Shown here: positions 48,950 through 58,136 of the stretch, piece by piece
How positions within the stretch are numbered: position 1 is the stretch's first letter
Layout: each line of letters opens with the position of its first letter
DNA from: an uncultured Clostridia bacterium
GTDB taxonomy: Bacteria > Bacillota > Clostridia > Oscillospirales > Ruminococcaceae
DNA: 60,125 nucleotides
Direction: 5' to 3'
Assembly (NCBI GenBank): GCA_947625195.1
Contig: CANQNK010000014.1
Coordinates: 1 to 60,125 of the forward strand
Translations under genes and position numbers: made by a program
The notes under the pieces: generated by a model
The model's input: only the letters and a program-made list of their open reading frames with translations
Database searches by the model: none
Told to the model about the DNA's origin: nothing

Positions 48950-49068
48950 AGAGTAATCCATACTTAAAATTAAGATTACAAGCAGGAGCCGACTTTTCAT
49001 AAAGAAAACGGCGAGTATCTGCGAAAGAATCTATAATTGGCCTTAATTCATAATTTTTATGATATGAA

Positions 49069-49110
49069 ACACAACGCTCTGTTTTGCAAAAGCAGAGCGT
49101 TGTGTTTAAT
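49069..49110 (+). terminator. Intrinsic terminator after ppdK
   Basis: ACACAACGCTCTG and CAGAGCGTTGTGT form a 13-bp perfect stem followed by TTTAATT. Confidence 0.88.
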
Positions 49111-49130
49111 TGATAAAATAGATAGTATTT

Positions 49131-49175
49131 AAAAGCCGCTTATTCTTAAATAAAAGTATAAGCGGCTTTTAATTT
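49131..49175. terminator. Second terminator
   Basis: AAAAGCCGCTTAT and ATAAGCGGCTTTT form a 13-bp stem with A/T tails on either side, able to work on both strands. It insulates ppdK from the invertible region and would stop leftward transcripts leaving it. Confidence 0.85.
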
Positions 49176-49263
49176 GTTACAAATTCACAAAATATTATAC
49201 ATATACAATACTTGTCTGAGACAACAATGAAAATGTAAAAAAAATACTGATTATAGACAAAAT

Positions 49264-49296
49264 TCGACAAAACTATCATAATTTCTGCGTTATAAT
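49264..49296 (+). promoter_or_regulatory. Promoter-like element left of the invertible segment (21-bp spacer)
   Basis: TCGACA (49264-49269) and a perfect TATAAT (49291-49296) are 21 bp apart, pointing right into the left inverted repeat. The layout (GACAAAA, 19 bp, ATAnT) is the same as in the promoter before agrD at 52764-52796. Confidence 0.45.
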
Positions 49297-49318: not shown

Positions 49319-49343
49319 TTCGCAAATTATACTACTTTGCGAA
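49319..49343. repeat. Left inverted repeat of the invertible segment (IRL)
   Basis: The 25-bp site has arms TTCGCAAA and TTTGCGAA around the asymmetric 9-bp centre TTATACTAC. The whole 25 bp recur exactly in reverse complement at 50684-50708. Two short inverted arms around a 9-bp centre is the architecture of a tyrosine-recombinase core site. Confidence 0.92.
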
Positions 49344-49414
49344 AAACTCATAAAATCACGGAAAATTAATAACATTCTTAAATATTCTATTTGCTTGACG
49401 GCTGAAAAGTTTTA

Positions 49415-50524
49415 TTATGCAATGTTCAGTCTTTCAACATATTTTTTCTTTGCTTCAATAGACGAATGAACATACCTGTTAAGTGTGATGTTTACATTTG
49501 TGTGGCCTAACAGCTCGCTGACTGCTTTAATATCAAAACCCTTTTCTATACATAACGTAGCGTATGTGTGCCTGAGTAAATGAAAATTTACATTTCTTAC
49601 GCCACATTGCTTAAGCACCATCTTGAATCTGTACTGCATGGTTCTCGGTTCTACAGGCTTGCTCGTACCGGAAAGAATAAAGCTATTTTTGTCTTTTTTG
49701 TTTTCACCAAGCAGCTTTAATATAAATTCCGGCAGGGGTATATCACGAATGGAAGCTGTACTTTTTGGATCTGAGAAGTGCAGCATTGTTTTTTTGATTC
49801 CTTCTGAATTGTCAATTATACGCTGAACGGTTCTGGAAACGTGAACGGTTCCGTTATCCAAATCAATATCTTCCCATTTTAAGGCGCACACCTCTCCTAT
49901 GCGAAGTCCGCTGTACATAGTAATGAGAATACCAAGATTGCCGCAGTTTAGATTTTCAAGCAGGTATCTTTTGAGCTTTGAACGTTCGGAGTCGTTTAAT
50001 ACAGGTATGTTTTTCTTCTCCGTCTTCGGCAAAAAAACATTTCTTATCGGGTTCGCAAAGTCGTATTTATATTCGGCGTATTTTGTTATGGATCTAAGTG
50101 TGGATAGAATATCCCGTACCATCTTTACAGATAACCCGCCGACTCCGTTTGCTCTGCCGTAAGCAAGCTTGTACTCAATGAATTCGTTTATCACAGCCGT
50201 GTCGATCTCTGCGTAATCCATGTCTTCAAAATACGGTATTATATGCCTTGTTACTATTCTTTCATAGCAGCAAAAGCTTGATTGCTTCACTCTTAGCTTT
50301 ACGGAGCAAAGCCACTCAAGTGAAAGCTCGCGCATGCTTTTATGACAGAAGCTATGTGAAGAATTTCCGTTCTTATATGCCTCAAGCATTTTTTCTTTTA
50401 ATTCCTTGACTGTTCTGGCATAAAAGTACTGATATTTAAGCTTTCCAGAGCTGTCTCTGTCAATGGGAATACGTCCCTCGTAACGGCCATCTTTTCTTTT
50501 GTAAATGTTCATAGTACTTCTCAT
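49415..50524 (-). CDS. Tyrosine recombinase (probable DNA invertase)
   Basis: The 369-residue protein has an N-terminal arm-binding-like part (MNIYKRKDGRYEGRIPID, similar to Tn916-type integrases), a SAM-like core-binding domain (about 65-165) and a catalytic domain with all five key positions: Arg208 in YSGLRIGEVCALKW, the beta-hairpin Lys in DPKSTASIRD, His315/Arg318 in HLLRHTYATL, His341 in LGHTNV and nucleophile Tyr351 in NRYVHSS. AAGGAGG gives a strong start at 50524. It lies wholly between the 25-bp inverted repeats and is the obvious candidate to invert them. Confidence 0.93.
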   Translation of the reverse strand: MRSTMNIYKRKDGRYEGRIPIDRDSSGKLKYQYFYARTVKELKEKMLEAYKNGNSSHSFCHKSMRELSLEWLCSVKLRVKQSSFCCYERIVTRHIIPYFEDMDYAEIDTAVINEFIEYKLAYGRANGVGGLSVKMVRDILSTLRSITKYAEYKYDFANPIRNVFLPKTEKKNIPVLNDSERSKLKRYLLENLNCGNLGILITMYSGLRIGEVCALKWEDIDLDNGTVHVSRTVQRIIDNSEGIKKTMLHFSDPKSTASIRDIPLPEFILKLLGENKKDKNSFILSGTSKPVEPRTMQYRFKMVLKQCGVRNVNFHLLRHTYATLCIEKGFDIKAVSELLGHTNVNITLNRYVHSSIEAKKKYVERLNIA

Positions 50525-50598
50525 AACTATCCTCCTTAATTGACTAAACTTTTGACGGTTTATTATTTTTTATTGAACACAGAGCACTGTGAATCGGC

Positions 50599-50627
50599 TT
50601 TACAAATAAAAAAACTTGTGATATACT
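50599..50627 (+). promoter_or_regulatory. Invertible promoter reading into the agr operon
   Basis: TTTACA (50599-50604) and TATACT (50622-50627) are exactly 17 bp apart, with transcription expected near 50634, through the right repeat and into the gene at 50758. It lies inside the invertible segment, so its direction would change upon inversion. Confidence 0.7.
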
Positions 50628-50636
50628 TTAGTTGTT

Positions 50637-50665
50637 ATTCTACCAGATCATTTTTAGTGTTACAA
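50637..50665 (-). promoter_or_regulatory. Predicted recombinase promoter
   Basis: On the minus strand TTGTAA (50665-50660) and TAGAAT (50642-50637) are 17 bp apart, about 115 bp upstream of the recombinase start. It diverges from the promoter at 50599-50627, overlapping its start region. Confidence 0.55.
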
Positions 50666-50683
50666 AAATATTCATAATCGCCA

Positions 50684-50708
50684 TTCGCAAAGTAGTATAA
50701 TTTGCGAA
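50684..50708. repeat. Right inverted repeat of the invertible segment (IRR)
   Basis: Arms TTCGCAAA and TTTGCGAA surround GTAGTATAA, the exact reverse complement of the left repeat. It lies 50 bp upstream of the agr response-regulator start. Its centre plus first arm base contains TATAAT (50696-50701) on the plus strand. Confidence 0.92.
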
Positions 50709-50757
50709 AAATACATGAAAAGTATATATTTTTATTATGTCTGCGGAGGTTAAAAAT

Positions 50758-51462
50758 ATGCTTAGAATTGCAATATGTGATGATGATATAAACTTTTGCT
50801 ACAAGCTCGAAAGCATTATTTTAGATTATATGGACAGTATTAGTGAACTGGCGGAAGTGATGGTGTATTTTTCAGGAGAGAGGCTTTTGCAGGAAATGCG
50901 GAACTCCGTAGGGTTTGATATTATCTTTCTTGACATTGAGCTAAAGCAAATAAATGGAGTTCAGGTCGGAATTGCAATAAGAAAAGAATTAAATTTGTTT
51001 TTACCACAGATAATTTATGTCACATCCTTTGAATCCTATGCTGTTCAGCTGTTTCAGAATCAGCCGTTTGGATTTGTAACCAAACCCGTGAATGAAGAAA
51101 AAATTCGAGATATAATAAAAGAATACAAACGCCAGTTTGATAACGCCAATGTTTATTATGAGTTCACAACCGGAAAAAACATCTGTAAGGTAGCAGTAAA
51201 AGATATTTACTACTTAAACAGCATTGCAAGAAAGCTCGTTATCCATACCAGGGAAGATGAGTTTGAAACTTATAAAAAGCTGGATGATTTTTATAAGCTG
51301 CCAATAAGTAAATACTTTATCCGAATACATAAATCATTTGCAGTTAATCAATTGCATATTTCGGTTTATCATTATGACCGTATTAAATTGTCAAACGGAG
51401 AGGAATTGTCTATCAGCAGAAATTATCGAAAAGAGGTACGAAAAGAACTGATAAAATTATAA
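50758..51462 (+). CDS. AgrA-like LytTR response regulator
   Basis: The 234-residue protein has a receiver domain (IAICDDDINFC, phosphoacceptor Asp59 in IIFLDIELKQINGVQVG, conserved Lys in VTKPVNEEK) and a LytTR DNA-binding domain (about 135-232, CKVAVKDIYYLNSIARKLVI, FIRIHKSFAVNQLHI, LSISRNYRKEVRKEL). AgrA/ComE-type regulators activate promoters with overlong spacers. GGAGGT at 50745-50750 supports ATG 50758 over the longer frame. It is the first gene to the right of the invertible segment, with the kinase gene 17 bp downstream. Confidence 0.92.
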   Translation: MLRIAICDDDINFCYKLESIILDYMDSISELAEVMVYFSGERLLQEMRNSVGFDIIFLDIELKQINGVQVGIAIRKELNLFLPQIIYVTSFESYAVQLFQNQPFGFVTKPVNEEKIRDIIKEYKRQFDNANVYYEFTTGKNICKVAVKDIYYLNSIARKLVIHTREDEFETYKKLDDFYKLPISKYFIRIHKSFAVNQLHISVYHYDRIKLSNGEELSISRNYRKEVRKELIKL

Positions 51463-51479: not shown

Positions 51480-52715
51480 ATGGAAAGCATCACTTATTTG
51501 TGTTGGAATCTGCTGAGAATATATGCTATTTTTATTTTCATAGATGTGTTTTTAAAAAGAAAAGATATTAAAAGCAGATACTTGTTGTTAGCTTATACTG
51601 CCTTTTTTGCTATTAATTCATTTTCCTACTTGTACTTTAATTCTTATATCGTTAATATAGCGTCAAATATAGTGCCTATATTTTTAATTACTTTTTTATA
51701 TGATTCAAAAATCTGGAAAAAAATATTTGTAACTATTCTTATGTACGCCATTTTGATGTTTTATGAAAGTGTTTTATATACTTTATTTAAAGCTTTGCAT
51801 ATTGCAAATTTAGTAATAGTTGGCGGTTTAGCAGAATCAATAATGCTGTTTATAACAGCACTGTTTTTAAAAACACATATAAAACAAAAATTCCAGCTTG
51901 CAACTCACATTAAAGCGTTTTATTATTTTATGTTGATTTTTATCCCTGTTGGAAGTATAGTTATCGGTCACCTAACTATGCACGATTGGAATATAAGATC
52001 TTTAATAATCAGTGCAATATTACTTTCAATAAATTTCCTTATATTTTATCTGTTTGATGAAATTATTAAATCATATGCGCGTCAACAGGAGGCTGAAAGC
52101 ATTAAGCAGAATAAACTGTACTTTCAGCATGAACTTGAGGTGATGGAGAAATCACAGCTCAAAATGGATTGCTTGCGGCATGATATGAAAAATCACTTTT
52201 ACCGGATCGAAGCGTTTGCAAAAGAAGACAATGTTGATGAACTGTTGAATTACATTGAGCAGGGAAAGAAATCGCTCCTTTCAAATGAAGGATATGTTTT
52301 TACCGGCAACAAAAGTGTAGATTGTATTTTGAATTTTAAATTAGACGAGGCAGCTAAAAACAATATTGCTTTTTCCGTCAGTGCAGCTATACCGAATAAT
52401 ATTAAAATAAATTCATTCGACTTGAACACTATCTTAGGAAATATTTTGGATAATGCCATTGAAGCTGCGTCCAAATCCAATGATAAAAAGATCGACATTT
52501 CAATAAATTACAATAAAAACATCTTGGCAATTATAATTATAAACTCATTTAACGGAAAGATAAATAAAAATTTTGAAACTGCTAAAGCAAATCCATTAGG
52601 ACACGGTCTGGGACTTAAAAGCGTACAAATTACCGCTGAAAAATATAACGGTTTGGTTGAATACGAATATGATAATATTTATTTTACGACAAAAATCCTC
52701 TTATATGATGAATAA
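51480..52715 (+). CDS. AgrC-like sensor histidine kinase
   Basis: The 411-residue protein has six hydrophobic N-terminal segments (about residues 5-195) forming the peptide-sensing domain, a coiled linker, the HPK10-type H-box with His234 in CLRHDMKNHFYRIEAF, and a GHKL-type ATPase domain with NILDNAIEAASKS and GHGLGLKSVQ. This is the architecture of AgrC/ComD, the receptor for a cyclic peptide pheromone. AGAGGATG precedes ATG 51480. The gene for the ligand precursor lies 114 bp downstream. Confidence 0.92.
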   Translation: MESITYLCWNLLRIYAIFIFIDVFLKRKDIKSRYLLLAYTAFFAINSFSYLYFNSYIVNIASNIVPIFLITFLYDSKIWKKIFVTILMYAILMFYESVLYTLFKALHIANLVIVGGLAESIMLFITALFLKTHIKQKFQLATHIKAFYYFMLIFIPVGSIVIGHLTMHDWNIRSLIISAILLSINFLIFYLFDEIIKSYARQQEAESIKQNKLYFQHELEVMEKSQLKMDCLRHDMKNHFYRIEAFAKEDNVDELLNYIEQGKKSLLSNEGYVFTGNKSVDCILNFKLDEAAKNNIAFSVSAAIPNNIKINSFDLNTILGNILDNAIEAASKSNDKKIDISINYNKNILAIIIINSFNGKINKNFETAKANPLGHGLGLKSVQITAEKYNGLVEYEYDNIYFTTKILLYDE

Positions 52716-52829: not shown

Positions 52830-52973
52830 ATGAAGAATTTTTTGAGAAAGTACGGGCATATTTTTGCGGCTCTTGCGTTGGTGTTTACAACAATTACCGC
52901 TAATTCAACTTGTTCGTATGTAATTCACCAAGAAAAGCTGCCTGAAAATGCGAAATTATTACGAAGGTTCTGA
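52830..52973 (+). CDS. AgrD-like cyclic peptide autoinducer precursor (47 aa)
   Basis: ATG 52830 follows AGGGAGG. The peptide has an amphipathic/hydrophobic leader (MKNFLRKYGHIFAALALVF), a small core around Cys28 (ANSTCSYVIH) and an acidic-then-basic tail (QEKLPENAKLLRRF) that matches the AgrD recognition tail with its conserved Pro. By analogy with clostridial AgrD the thiolactone ring should be C-S-Y-V-I with any N-terminal overhang from the NST residues. The stop overlaps the AgrB start (TGATG), so the two are coupled. It was too short for ordinary gene calling. Confidence 0.88.
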   Translation: MKNFLRKYGHIFAALALVFTTITANSTCSYVIHQEKLPENAKLLRRF

Positions 52974-53554
52974 TGTTTAACTCAATATCAGAAAAAATTA
53001 CCGGGTTGTTAATCAGGCAGGGAACGATAGCTGATTCACAAAAAGAATTATACCGGTATGGCTTTAATCAAGGCTTTACCATGGTTTTTAATGTGATTAC
53101 TACTTTAATAATCGGTTGTGTATTCGGTATGGTTATCCAAAGCATAGTTTTTTTAATGGCGTACATACCGTTAAGAAGCTATGCAGGAGGATACCATGCA
53201 AGCACACCATGGCGATGTTATTTTATTTCGCTGATTTTAATGATTGTGGTTTTAGCGATAATAAAGCTTATGTCGTTTTCTGTTATTGGTTCCGGTGTTA
53301 TTCTCGGGATAGGAACGATCATATGCGTTGCTTTAGCTCCGGTAGAAGACAAAAACAAGCCTCTTGATGAAGCAGAGCAGAAGGTTTACAAGAGAAGAAC
53401 ATACATAATACTATTTGCGGAGGTTTGTATCTCAATACTGATTTACCTTGCAATGAAAGAAATGTTTTCTGTTATTTGTTTATCGGTATTTACAGAGAGC
53501 ATAATGCTTATTTTCGGTAAAGTAAAGAACGCATTTAATAAAGCACTGATATAA
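52973..53554 (+). CDS. AgrB-like autoinducer-processing membrane protease
   Basis: The 193-residue protein has about five to six membrane spans and the AgrB catalytic pair His75 (SYAGGYHAST) and Cys82 (PWRCYF), seven residues apart as in the family. AgrB cleaves the C-terminal tail of AgrD and forms the thiolactone. It starts inside the agrD stop codon. No exporter gene follows. Confidence 0.93.
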   Translation: MFNSISEKITGLLIRQGTIADSQKELYRYGFNQGFTMVFNVITTLIIGCVFGMVIQSIVFLMAYIPLRSYAGGYHASTPWRCYFISLILMIVVLAIIKLMSFSVIGSGVILGIGTIICVALAPVEDKNKPLDEAEQKVYKRRTYIILFAEVCISILIYLAMKEMFSVICLSVFTESIMLIFGKVKNAFNKALI

Positions 53555-53781
53555 TCCTATCATTTAAATTTTTTATTATTGTAGATAATCGTCGGTTTAA
53601 TTTAATATTGATCTGGCGATTTCTAGCATACGGCATTTCACATTTTTGACTGGGCAATAATTTGCCGGGATATTGTTCATATCAAAAAGAGTGAAATATT
53701 GAAGCTGGCAGAGCGAGCGGCATGCTTCAATTAAACAAAACTCGCAAACTATCAAATATACTATCAAGGAGGTTGAATAGT

Positions 53782-55854
53782 ATGAAAATGAAGAAGATTA
53801 TAGCTGCAGCAGCAGCTATGGCAATGTCGGTAACAGCGTTTACATCGATGATAAGCGCGTCGGCATTGGATGGAGCAGGTACGTATACCGGAAACGCGGC
53901 ATACATCGGAACATATTTTAAGTCCGATTATTACGGAAACACTGCGTTTAAGATCAGCTACAAGTACGATAAGTTCGATGAGGACGGTACGTATGAAGAT
54001 CCCGACACAGGAAAGACAGTGACTATTGATTATAATGACACTTTTCAGTTCCTTGTGTTTGACTCGCAGTGGCTCGGTTGGGACAAGACGTCTGTAGGAC
54101 CGAACGGAGTTAACGTTACTGAACCGGTACTTACGGCAGAGGATTTGAACACAACTGAGATTTATACGGCTACTGTACCGATTGCAGCGATTGAAAGCCA
54201 ACTTAGTACTGTAGACCCGGTACAGGGAATCAATCTTCAGCTCGGTGGAGTAGGAGACACAACTGTAACGCTTGAGTCGATCGAGTATGTACAGGGTGAA
54301 ATACCTGGTGAGGAAGTAACCATTGTCGGTGAATGGGAAAAGCTTCCTGATGGATCAGAAGAACCGGTCGGAGAAATGAAGGTTACAGAAGGCTCGGCAT
54401 ATGTAACGACAAATCAGTGGAACATTCAGGTATCACAGTTCTCAACAAGTGGTTTTGTAAATCCGACAGTCGATGTAACAGTAACGTATGATACGGCGCC
54501 GAATGAGTATATTCAGGCAGAGCTTTTGAATACCAGCTGGGAGCCGATTGTTGCAAACTGGCCATATGTAGATGTAACGGGAACATATACCTACACTACA
54601 GAGCTTCCCAGCGGCACAAATGCATTTATAGCTTGCTATGATCTGTGTACAGTCAAAGAGATTCACATTTATGACAACCACGAAGGCAAGGCGCTTAATG
54701 TTTCCGGTAAAACAGCAAGCGAAGTAAACACAGCACTCCAGCCATGTTTTGCTGTAGGTGGAGCACTTGAAGGTTTTGAAGTGGATGAAAGTGGTAATGT
54801 ACATGCAAGTGAAACAGCATGGGGCAATCCCGTACTCACAGAAGCGTTGTTCCAGACAGTAAAGGAAGCAGGCTTTAAGAGCGTAAGAATTCCTGTAAGC
54901 TATCTTGACATGATAGATGCTAATGGTAATATTGTTAAAGATAGACTTGACAGAGTTCAGAAAGTCGTAGATGATGCTCTTGATACAGGCTTATATGTAA
55001 TAATCAATATCCATAACGACGGCGGAGAAGGCGTACCTGGAAAATGGATTGATATAAGTCTTGATCATGAGAGTGACGCATTTGCTAAAGTTGTAGCAAA
55101 GTTCTCGACAGCATGGACGCAGATAGCAACCAGGTTTGAAAACTACAATGAAGCTCTTATCTTTGAAGGTATGAACGAAGTTATGATTTCAGGCAAGTAT
55201 TCATTGAATCAATTTACAGGCGATGAGCTTGAAAACGCATATGCAAATATTGTTGAACTTAATCAGGCATTTGTAGATGCAGTACGAGGAACTGGTGATG
55301 ACGCAAATGATGACCGTTGTCTGATAGTACCCGGGTACAATACAAATATTGATATAACAGCATATGGATTTGATGAAGGAATGTTCTATATGCCTACAGA
55401 TACTGTTGATGACAGACTTATCCTCTCTGTACATTACTATGATCCATATGATTTTACCTTAAATGAAAACGGAACAGCTACGTGGAACATTGATAGTAAT
55501 ACTGATGGTAAGCCCTATATGGTTTCACAGCTCAAAAAGATAGCAGAATACGGATATCCTGTATATGTTGGAGAATACTGTGCAATATTCAAAAATAACA
55601 TATCTGAAGTCGCAGAATATGTAGGTGCATTTAATGCAGCAATCACTGACGTTGTGGCAGAGACAGGAGTGAGCATCTCAGCGGCATACTGGGATAACGG
55701 TGTAATTGGCGATGATAACAAGGGTTCTGGTATAATTGACAGAAGGTTTAATATTGTAACTGCAACAGGAACAACTATCATTAATGCGATTTTTAATAAT
55801 ATTCCTCCGAAGTATGCACCTGTTTATCCAACGCCAACAGATGAACAGATATGA
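53782..55854 (+). CDS. Secreted GH5 endoglucanase with N-terminal beta-sandwich modules
   Basis: The 690-residue protein has a signal peptide (MKMKKIIAAAAAMAMSVTA, cleavage near SASA-LDG), two beta-rich, probably carbohydrate-binding modules (about 30-175 and 180-310) and a GH5 catalytic domain (about 320-675). GH5 landmarks are GFKSVRIPVSYL, VIINIHNDGG, the acid/base Glu466 in FEGMNEV, SVHYYDPYDF and the nucleophile Glu598 in VYVGEYC; they suit a cellulase/glucanase of subfamily 4 type. It ends in a Pro/Thr linker-like tail (YAPVYPTPTDEQI) with no dockerin. AAGGAGG precedes ATG 53782. Confidence 0.88.
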   Translation: MKMKKIIAAAAAMAMSVTAFTSMISASALDGAGTYTGNAAYIGTYFKSDYYGNTAFKISYKYDKFDEDGTYEDPDTGKTVTIDYNDTFQFLVFDSQWLGWDKTSVGPNGVNVTEPVLTAEDLNTTEIYTATVPIAAIESQLSTVDPVQGINLQLGGVGDTTVTLESIEYVQGEIPGEEVTIVGEWEKLPDGSEEPVGEMKVTEGSAYVTTNQWNIQVSQFSTSGFVNPTVDVTVTYDTAPNEYIQAELLNTSWEPIVANWPYVDVTGTYTYTTELPSGTNAFIACYDLCTVKEIHIYDNHEGKALNVSGKTASEVNTALQPCFAVGGALEGFEVDESGNVHASETAWGNPVLTEALFQTVKEAGFKSVRIPVSYLDMIDANGNIVKDRLDRVQKVVDDALDTGLYVIINIHNDGGEGVPGKWIDISLDHESDAFAKVVAKFSTAWTQIATRFENYNEALIFEGMNEVMISGKYSLNQFTGDELENAYANIVELNQAFVDAVRGTGDDANDDRCLIVPGYNTNIDITAYGFDEGMFYMPTDTVDDRLILSVHYYDPYDFTLNENGTATWNIDSNTDGKPYMVSQLKKIAEYGYPVYVGEYCAIFKNNISEVAEYVGAFNAAITDVVAETGVSISAAYWDNGVIGDDNKGSGIIDRRFNIVTATGTTIINAIFNNIPPKYAPVYPTPTDEQI

Positions 55855-58136
55855 AAAAATTTTTATCTGGTTTAACAGCAGCAGTCATATTATTGACTGC
55901 TGCTGCTATACCTGTTTTTGCGGAGTCCACATCTGCTTCCGGTAACTGCGGAGAAAACGCAACATGGTTTATTAATTCCGACGCAGTGTTGGTCGTATCA
56001 GGTAACGGAGCACCAGACACAAGCAAGCCGTGGCGGTTATTTGGAAACGATATACAAAAAGTAGTTGTTGAAGATGGTATTACAGAGCTATGCAACGGAC
56101 AATTTTCGTTTTGCAAGAATCTGACAGAAATATTTTTTTCGTCAACAGTTACAAACCTTGGATCCTGTATAGCAGGTGATATGGATAGTCTGACTGATAT
56201 ATGGCTTTATTCCGATAGCGTTAAAAATACTTTTTCTGGTAGTTCTAGCCTATATCCAAAATCGGGAAGCGGAACAAAGTGGCATGTGTATCAGGGCACA
56301 ATAACTGAAACCTCGTTAAGAGAGGGTCTTAAGCTCACGGACGAGGATTTTGAGTATATCACAAATGATCAGGCATTTCCTGAAATTGAAAACCGTGCGC
56401 CTGTCAACGTGCCAGAAGTGAATGAGACAAGCGGACCATGTGGATTACTGTCCTCATACTCTTGGGATGAGGAGACGAAAACTCTTACCTTTAAGGGAAG
56501 CGGCGGTATTACAATTACTGAATACTATCAGAAGTTTGCCGATAAGGCCGAAAATGTTGTAATGGATAATTCAAAAATCACAAGCATTTGCGATTTGGCG
56601 TTTGGGCGGAAGATATCAAATTCTAATGATGCGTTGTTTCCTAAGCTTAATAAAGTGACACTTCCAACAACGTTAGAAGTAATCGGAAAGTATGCTTTTT
56701 ATATGGCAAATATAACTACCATTAGTCTGCCAGAAGGCCTTGAAACAATTGACGAAGGAGCATTTAGCGGTACTTCATTATCAGGTAATTTAATTTTGCC
56801 GAGAACACTTAATACTATCGGTCAATCTGCATTCTCAAATACCAATATTACATTGGTTAATCTGAATGAGGGAATGACATTAGGTGGTAAGGCTTTTTCT
56901 AACTGTAATAATTTAAAAGAAGTAATTATACCAAAAGGCATATTTTATCTAATGACAGGCACATCTAATGCCGGACGCTCTAATGCTGCTTTTTCAGGAT
57001 GTGAGGGACTTAAAAAAGTAACAATATACGGTGGAGGTATAGTTGCTATAGCTTTTAGCAGTATAGAAAACGGACTAAGTCGAGAATTGTTTTTGAATTG
57101 CCCATCTCTAGAAGAGGTAATAATTAGAGCTGATGATATTGAATATGTAGAAGAAGCAACGCTTAAAGCAGATGGAACACAAAATGTCGGAACCTTTGAC
57201 ATTAAAAATGGCATAACATTCTATATCTATAAAAACAGCACTACAGAAAAAACACTGAGAAATGCAGGATATCTTACAGATTCAAATTCAAATGTTGTGT
57301 ATATTGCTAATATTTCTGCTTTAGAGAAAGCTGTAAAGTCGGCTGAGGATATGGACACCAGTCTTCACACAGATGAATCAGTCGGAAGTCTTGATAAAGC
57401 TGTTAAGGATGGAAAAGATTTAATATTAGATGAAAATGCAACACAAGATGATGTAGATAATGCAATAAAAGCTATTGAAGACGCAATTGCCGGTCTTACA
57501 CATAAGCCTGCAGACTACACGGCAGTAGATGAAGCAATAGCAAAAGTACCTGCTGATCTGAGCATTTACACAGACGAGACTGCGGCGGCGGTTACTGCGG
57601 CAGTTGAGGCAGTTGACAGGACAAAGAATATCACCGAGCAGGAGATAGTTGACGGATATGTAAAGGCAATAGAGGACGCCGTTGCGGGCCTTGAGTTAAA
57701 GCCTTTGGGTATGGTCAGTGGAACTATAACAGCACCGGGAGTTGACACTGAGATTACGGTTACTGTAACGAACACTGACGGTGAAGTAATAGCCGAAGCA
57801 ACAGCAACAGACGGCAAGTATACTGTTTCCGATCTTGAAGACGGAGAGTATGTAATAACCGTCACTTCAGAAAACTGTGCACCGAGAAGCTACGAGGCAA
57901 TAGTAGCAGACGGTGATGCAACGCTTGACGCAGAGATACATCTCTACGGAGACATAAACGGCGACGGAGAGATAACCACAGCTGACGCAGGAATGGCAAA
58001 TGCACATGCAAGAGGAGCAAAGATGCTGGAGGGTTACGACTTTGAAGTAGCCGAAGTAACTGGCGACGGTAAGGTAACAACCGCAGACTTTGGTGCAATA
58101 AATGCGCATGCTCAAAGCGTAAGAGCGTTGTGGTAA
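55851..58136 (+). CDS. Secreted BspA-like leucine-rich-repeat protein with C-terminal type I dockerin
   Basis: The 761-residue protein has a signal peptide (about 1-25), BspA/LRR_5 repeats (about 40-470: TTLEVIGKYAFYMANI, LPEGLETIDEGAFSG), two helical FIVAR-like repeats (about 490-620), a small beta-sandwich like carboxypeptidase regulatory domains (GMVSGTITAPGVDTEI) and a type I dockerin with two calcium loops, DINGDGEITTADAG and DVTGDGKVTTADFG. The dockerin should bind a cohesin scaffold or surface anchor. The start overlaps the GH5 stop by ATGA and lacks its own clear ribosome binding site, so translation is coupled. Confidence 0.88.
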   Translation: MKKFLSGLTAAVILLTAAAIPVFAESTSASGNCGENATWFINSDAVLVVSGNGAPDTSKPWRLFGNDIQKVVVEDGITELCNGQFSFCKNLTEIFFSSTVTNLGSCIAGDMDSLTDIWLYSDSVKNTFSGSSSLYPKSGSGTKWHVYQGTITETSLREGLKLTDEDFEYITNDQAFPEIENRAPVNVPEVNETSGPCGLLSSYSWDEETKTLTFKGSGGITITEYYQKFADKAENVVMDNSKITSICDLAFGRKISNSNDALFPKLNKVTLPTTLEVIGKYAFYMANITTISLPEGLETIDEGAFSGTSLSGNLILPRTLNTIGQSAFSNTNITLVNLNEGMTLGGKAFSNCNNLKEVIIPKGIFYLMTGTSNAGRSNAAFSGCEGLKKVTIYGGGIVAIAFSSIENGLSRELFLNCPSLEEVIIRADDIEYVEEATLKADGTQNVGTFDIKNGITFYIYKNSTTEKTLRNAGYLTDSNSNVVYIANISALEKAVKSAEDMDTSLHTDESVGSLDKAVKDGKDLILDENATQDDVDNAIKAIEDAIAGLTHKPADYTAVDEAIAKVPADLSIYTDETAAAVTAAVEAVDRTKNITEQEIVDGYVKAIEDAVAGLELKPLGMVSGTITAPGVDTEITVTVTNTDGEVIAEATATDGKYTVSDLEDGEYVITVTSENCAPRSYEAIVADGDATLDAEIHLYGDINGDGEITTADAGMANAHARGAKMLEGYDFEVAEVTGDGKVTTADFGAINAHAQSVRALW

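Follow-up and report, generated by a model that had tools for sequence, protein, structure and literature searches.

We propose that a segment of the window (the whole 60,125-nt stretch of DNA analysed here), at 49319-50708, is a promoter inverton that carries its own recombinase and controls an agr quorum-sensing operon, likely serving two further loci, B and C, in trans and probably sharing a signal with them. We consider this reading, taken as a whole, highly probable. In the proposed mechanism, (i) the recombinase would pair two inverted sites, each with palindromic arms around a locus-specific spacer, and flip the segment (segment A); (ii) in the orientation found in the window the segment promoter would read into agrA-C-D-B, the ON state, and after inversion it would face two hairpins with no gene on that strand, an OFF or low state; and (iii) the same recombinase would probably flip B and C, which are promoter-only segments ahead of LytTR-kinase pairs. 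The initial annotation had called segment A self-contained. The recombinase does lie inside its own segment, but that description is too narrow, as the enzyme probably also works in trans on recombinase-less segments.

Segment A (49344-50683; 1,340 nt) is enclosed by an inverted repeat, 49319-49343 and 50684-50708, whose two 25-nt copies are 100% complementary. In 25 first-order Markov simulations of 60,125 nt, the longest inverted repeat within 3 kb by chance was 12-16 nt. The left site, on the plus strand, reads TTCGCAAA-TTATACTAC-TTTGCGAA, with 8-nt arms (TTCGCAAA and TTTGCGAA) around a 9-nt centre (TTATACTAC); the right site, on the agr side, is its inverted partner on the minus strand. 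Both the perfect 25-bp repeats and their division into 8-bp arms and a 9-bp centre had been noted earlier, and both are borne out here. The arms recur elsewhere with other spacers, and an orthologous segment lies between inverted sites in two further genomes of the genus (G008 and G014). With up to three mismatches the site pattern has three matches in the window; the third, at 56570 (three mismatches), was taken as chance, since 4 of 100 shuffles also reached three. We note that three species retain GACAAAATTCGACA shortly beyond the distal site of segment A (49256-49269 in the window; L045, 3973; L046, 6572), although the neighbouring gene differs in one of them. No RNA element in the leader matched Rfam at gathering score between 48900 and 54000.

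The only credible gene inside segment A encodes a tyrosine recombinase of 369 aa (49415-50524, minus strand; Pfam Phage_integrase, E 5.1e-26, and Phage_int_SAM_3). R208, K254, H315, R318, H341, and Y351, to which we presumptively assign catalytic roles, are invariant in an alignment of 14 sequences that includes the window's. The Pfam match and these residues agree with the earlier statement that the sole gene between the repeats is an intact tyrosine recombinase. Among solved proteins, Tn1549 Int is its best match by sequence (E 1e-13), with an MRSA integrase scoring almost the same (1.1e-13). A Foldseek search with the predicted fold returned Tn1549 Int chains at ranks 1-5 (best E 7.0e-15; TM 0.60-0.65 by query length). 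In the predicted fold this match spans the core-binding and catalytic domains, the solved chains covering aa 82-397 without the N-terminal domain. Tn1549-type integrases are thus the nearest solved relatives by both sequence and fold; here the gene sits between inverted sites.

In the recombinase model (mean pLDDT 84), the core-binding region is preceded by three strands and a helix. For this reason we read two TTGACGG elements inside the segment (49395-49401 and 50552-50558, both plus strand) as candidate arm-type sites, which, at fixed distances from the ends, may serve the recombinase. TGACGG recurs at like positions in relatives. On the left it stands at segment position 76-80 in all three A segments, in B of the window's own genome (G000), and in C of G014, and is missing there in C of G008; on the right it stands 155-165 nt from the end in all three A segments and both C segments, and is missing in B of G000. 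The next recombinase in G000 is 35% identical over 291 residues, with one short match at 36%. A prophage or phage origin was considered and rejected, the viral and phage relatives among the matches listed (8 loci; 8 of 14 records) being only 25-42% identical. The segment promoter had no exact match in viral_contigs. All 12 plasmid records that matched the recombinase were at most 42% identical, and no agr gene is listed in the stretch shown for two of the 12 plasmids (R. albus 7 pRUMAL02 and a Vescimonas plasmid).

Directly beyond the right site lie four plus-strand genes side by side, which together identify the operon as agr. These are an agrA-type LytTR response regulator (50758-51462; domain match), an agrC-type GHKL histidine kinase (51480-52715), the peptide precursor agrD (52830-52973; ending in NSTCSYVIHQEKLPENAKLLRRF; NCBIfam TIGR04223, 34.8 bits versus a cut-off of 19), and the peptide-processing protease agrB (52973-53554; Pfam AgrB, E 1.2e-41). 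For agrA we preferred the start at 50758, which follows GGAGG, over the start at 50737 in the ORF list. ORFs similar to agrD are present in G008 and G014. A full agr system outside the right repeat had been claimed before; all four genes were matched, AgrD above its cut-off. Downstream on the same strand lie a GH5 cellulase (53779-55854) and a BspA-type leucine-rich repeat protein with a dockerin (55851-58136). Judged from position, the neighbouring cellulase and dockerin proteins are probably the targets of the switch. To the left of segment A are two hairpins and a convergent gene that by eye resembles pyruvate phosphate dikinase.

Sites of the same design occur elsewhere in the genome and the genus. 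In G000 (33 contigs), the site pattern with two mismatches allowed matched at five places, all with one mismatch at most, versus three places for a reversed control. The further same-arm sites are an inverted pair at C28:2768-2792 and C28:3118-3142 and a single site at C29:6-30. Sites with one mismatch or fewer were found in 5 of 15 genomes of the genus, at 18 places (the control occurred once each in 4 genomes); 16 of these places are in G000, G008, and G014, and G006 and G012 hold one each. They define locus A, present in G000, G008, and G014 with the recombinase inside and agr beside it, and loci B and C, which lack a recombinase, have segments of 351-376 nt including the sites in the three resolved cases, and each adjoin a LytTR regulator and a kinase. 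All three proteins tested among those that follow the B and C regulators have BspA-type repeats; a dockerin match passed the Pfam cut-off in both C loci and narrowly missed it in B of G014. On its other side, switch B of G000 has a GH5 gene as neighbour. The second flank of C in G000 and that of B in G014 were not found, and neither was the regulator of locus C in G000.

Eight site pairs were available for comparison: three of A and two each of B and C (one per genome in each case), and one around a further self-flanked recombinase in G012. Within six of the eight pairs the two 9-nt spacers match exactly, and in all eight their central 7 nt do; between loci of the same genome, spacers differ at 3-4 nt. 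Because the two remaining pairs have one spacer mismatch each and several arms are imperfect, some copies of the switch may be locked. The inner sequences of the segments differ between species. Each of the six segments resolved (the three A copies, B of G000, and C of G008 and G014) contains the segment promoter, TTTACAAATWAAAAAWCTTGTGNTATACT, always facing the LytTR gene. With up to two mismatches this promoter occurs in 8 of 396 family genomes, a draw that does not include G012 and G014; five of the matches, each with two mismatches, fall in other genera (G040, G152, G240, G251, and G370). In a sister species (G003), a two-mismatch copy stands ahead of a LytTR-kinase-AgrB operon, and the 9 kb read there contains no site-like sequence with up to three mismatches. 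Related recombinases lie beside GH5-like and BspA/dockerin-like genes at L055 (G001:C13), L047 (G006), and L048 (G012), with inverted sites on both sides at L055 and L048 and one site only at L047; the stretches mapped at these three loci contain no agr. Some switches may act directly on GH5 or BspA-dockerin genes.

The recombinase-agr arrangement extends beyond the genus. With a relative 59% identical to the window's recombinase as query, 13 of 396 family genomes gave a match of E 1e-100 or better; the window's genus accounts for three of the 13. From these matches and further recombinase loci we mapped, outside the genus, 16 loci in 12 genomes in which a LytTR gene comes after a recombinase enclosed by inverted repeats. 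Thirteen of the 16 show AgrB; in L102, L104, and L117 the contig ends before it could appear, and the recombinase of L104 is split. No agr follows the recombinase in L100 or L161, L164 ends 175 nt past the site, and the mapped relatives of 35-45% identity have no AgrB within the stretch listed. At L153 (G126:C2), a 408-aa opposite-strand ORF, by eye perhaps a transposase, lies between the LytTR gene and the AgrC-type kinase. Distant relatives (34-43%) lie beside other genes, some of them glycosyltransferase-like by eye (L106, L109, L111, L112, L113, L114, and L115). Inverted repeats around these recombinases are clear in L106, L109, L111, L112, and L113 and weak in L114, and no flanking inverted repeat was reported for L115.

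In the window, the promoter TTTACA-17-TATACT, with an extended -10, lies at 50599-50627 on the plus strand and faces agrA, as the initial annotation had it. A promoter match on its own is weak evidence: between 48000 and 54500 a consensus scan gave 30 promoter-like sites, with 23.6 expected. The same annotation had two terminators awaiting the inverted promoter. Two hairpins are indeed present, at 49064-49110 (met first or second by the inverted promoter) and at 49129-49172 (a strong hairpin with no T-run behind it leftward), but neither counts as a leftward, minus-strand terminator in the consensus scan, and only the first was accepted by a looser leftward test (-18.8 kcal/mol; tail TTTCATATC). 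The best hairpin facing the inverted promoter under the looser test reaches -18.8 kcal/mol in the window, -3.1 in G008, and -8.5 in G014. Just outside the segment, at 50702-50730 on the plus strand, a weak promoter-like TTGCGA-17-TATATT has its -35 in the outer arm of the site and is a candidate source of leak in OFF. After inversion the recombinase would read toward agr, 146 nt ahead of agrA, and we found no terminator-like sequence between the two in that arrangement. Given the weak leftward terminators, this outside promoter-like sequence, and the possible read-through from the recombinase, the OFF orientation may be leaky rather than silent. The promoter directed toward agr, to which the earlier annotation tied the predicted ON state, is borne out; a silent OFF is less secure.

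These observations lead to an alternative in which the switch is real and toggles agr between strong expression and an autoregulated or basal level driven by a promoter outside the segment. At each of the 16 loci beyond the genus, agr has a fair promoter-like sequence of its own between the site and the regulator, with an extended -10 and scores of 9-11 (for example, TTGATT-17-TATAAT), so there the switch would modulate agr rather than turn it on and off. The weaker outside sequence of the window and the possible read-through after inversion point the same way. Against this, the outside match in the three loci of the window's genus scores 9 without an extended -10, versus 11 for the segment promoter. 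We regard the toggle between strong and basal expression as a credible reading that nonetheless falls well short of an even chance.

We next consider whether the segment still flips. In the promoter inverton that we favor, both orientations should coexist in a population. Across the family, both orientations exist. Segment A has its promoter toward agr in all three species of the window's genus; outside the genus, in 16 of 16 loci, it is the recombinase that reads toward agr and the best inside promoter-like match points away (scores of 10-12 away, 7-10 toward). Within 300 nt beyond the distal site, 14 of these 16 loci have a hairpin (-4.4 kcal/mol or better) with a tail rich in T (the hairpin of L157 is weak, at -4.0 kcal/mol, and L156 runs off its contig). 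The split of 16 versus 3 is, however, uniform within each group, and this is an argument for a different explanation, namely that the recombinase cassette is real but fixed per lineage, a passenger or mobile cassette beside agr that no longer switches. In keeping with a fixed cassette, segment A was assembled without a break in all three species, none of the three copies found is reverse-oriented, and several upstream genes outside the genus look mobilisation-like by eye.

Three observations speak against a fixed cassette. The first is the spacers, alike within pairs and different between loci. The second is the position of contig ends at loci B and C. De Bruijn assembly of a mixed population would end contigs where two orientations diverge. 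In G008, C32 ends 1 nt past a B site and C34 begins 1 nt before the other B site; C2 of G014 starts 1 nt ahead of a B site, and C29 of G000 starts 5 nt ahead of a C site. At all four ends it is the segment side that is lacking. Hence 4 of the 16 sites in these three genomes lie 1-5 nt from a contig end (chance P of about 6e-12, from rounded contig counts), or 4 of 18 when G006 and G012, whose sites are inside contigs, are included. The third is G139:C44, where the 3' side of the recombinase is joined to the agr flank through one site, and where, at the end of the contig (47780-47834), the other site links the 5' side of the recombinase to the opening 35 nt of that same agr flank. Reverse-complemented, these final 55 nt match the agr-side junction exactly; 55 is a common assembly word length. 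We read the end of G139:C44 as an inverted junction that the assembler captured. The copy on C121 of G139 contains this 55-mer too, and the junction may belong to either locus or join the two copies. On this evidence we consider a cassette that has ceased to switch unlikely. The earlier inverton reading is therefore supported by the relatives, through pair-specific sites at B and C, the promoter in six of six segments, the contig ends, the two orientations family-wide, and G139:C44; that the window copy itself flips we infer from these, with one orientation in all three species of its genus.

The contig ends at B and C could also reflect mixtures of strains with different segment content, and not inversion. 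G008 and G014 are metagenome assemblies, and inner segment sequences do differ between species, as such mixtures would have it. Both B flanks in G008 nevertheless stop exactly 1 nt past the site, where an ordinary strain difference need not start, and G139:C44 shows the inverted junction itself; we judge strain mixture, too, an improbable source of these ends. Finally, the 25-bp palindromes lie close upstream of regulator genes, as operators of a transcription factor might, and we rejected this very improbable reading since an operator needs no 9-nt centre that is the same within a pair, different between loci, and inverted around a recombinase, nor would it account for contig ends at the sites.

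Returning to the inverton and its relation to B and C, we compared the kinases of the three loci. Their sensor halves (residues 1-200) are 45-50% identical, and their kinase halves 23-26% in the multiple alignment (28-32% pairwise), with the identity breaking near residue 200. For comparison, 11 kinases from the 16 family-wide loci are 10-31% identical to kinase A in the sensor and 20-38% in the kinase half. The regulators of B and C are 22-28% identical to that of A. No AgrD-like ORF follows the B or C kinases in four loci (B of G000 and G014; C of G008 and G014). AgrB has one match in G008, one in G000 (the agrB of locus A, in an assembly from which part of locus C is missing), and in G014 a second, short one. 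Because the three kinases share a sensor half and AgrB and AgrD occur together only at locus A, the B and C kinases, with their different kinase domains and regulators, probably hear the peptide of locus A and route it to other outputs. Two observations weigh against a shared peptide. Sensor similarity is 45-50% whichever genomes are paired, and so gives no sign of co-evolution with the peptide. In addition, four sister species that lack these sites have an A-type sensor as well, at 51-59% identity; in two of the four (G005 and G004, the latter 79% complete) AgrB had no match.

In those four sister species, the LytTR operon has two or three tandem kinases, the third short or absent (L184 in G005, L185 in G010, L186 in G011, and L187 in G004), and the stretches read contain no site-like sequences. 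G-runs of 11, 12, 11, and 11, respectively, end 98-99 nt before the LytTR gene and, going by sequence, are a candidate slipped-strand switch.

The most specific form of our hypothesis is that one peptide addresses three AgrC-type receivers with the same sensor and insulated outputs, each behind its own switch of a single self-inverting recombinase. We advance it tentatively, as a possibility only slightly more likely to be wrong than right.

Several known switches resemble parts of this arrangement. Hin is a serine recombinase that controls flagellin, and thus differs from segment A in class (tyrosine here) and in target (agr here); Mpi acts on surface-polysaccharide promoters; and the recombinase of the cmr switch is encoded elsewhere. 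The Salmonella Hin switch is like segment A in that the recombinase lies within the invertible segment (PMC5903667). Mpi of Bacteroides fragilis, itself a serine-type master recombinase with at least thirteen invertible regions (PMC5903667), is like the trans action proposed here in that one recombinase serves several regions. In Clostridioides difficile, the cmr switch (Cdi6) is an inverton that precedes the two-component system CmrRST and has an ON and an OFF orientation (PMC6837544, PMC5903667), and so, like segment A, stands ahead of a signal-transduction operon; its switching mechanism is called undefined in PMC6837544. Unlike agr here, CmrRST comprises two response regulators together with a kinase, and the parts of these two papers that deal with it name no peptide-maker (PMC6837544, PMC5903667). 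Phase variants of agr in Staphylococcus aureus show reversible loss of agr function and arise by duplication and inversion in agrC or by changes in a poly(A) tract; the word "recombinase" is absent from the main text of that paper (PMC6686034). Likewise, "agr" and "quorum" are absent from the main text of a paper on gut invertons (PMC11892184). Among the papers listed (at most 20 of up to 232 per search) by searches of a full-text library with few subscription papers and no bioRxiv preprints, none has a title or start of abstract that describes a recombinase-switched agr or other peptide quorum-sensing operon, in line with the earlier remark that none was known.

Quorum sensing is usually seen as a response that the cells of a clone join. 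If our reading is correct, a recombinase-switched agr makes participation heritable and random per cell, which bears on how secreted cellulases, as public goods, survive cheating. With the recombinase-agr module present in other genera too, many natural test systems would be available. Should the three-receiver form of the hypothesis also hold, a clone would contain up to eight heritable listening states, which would decide which of its cells make the shared cellulases and dockerin proteins.
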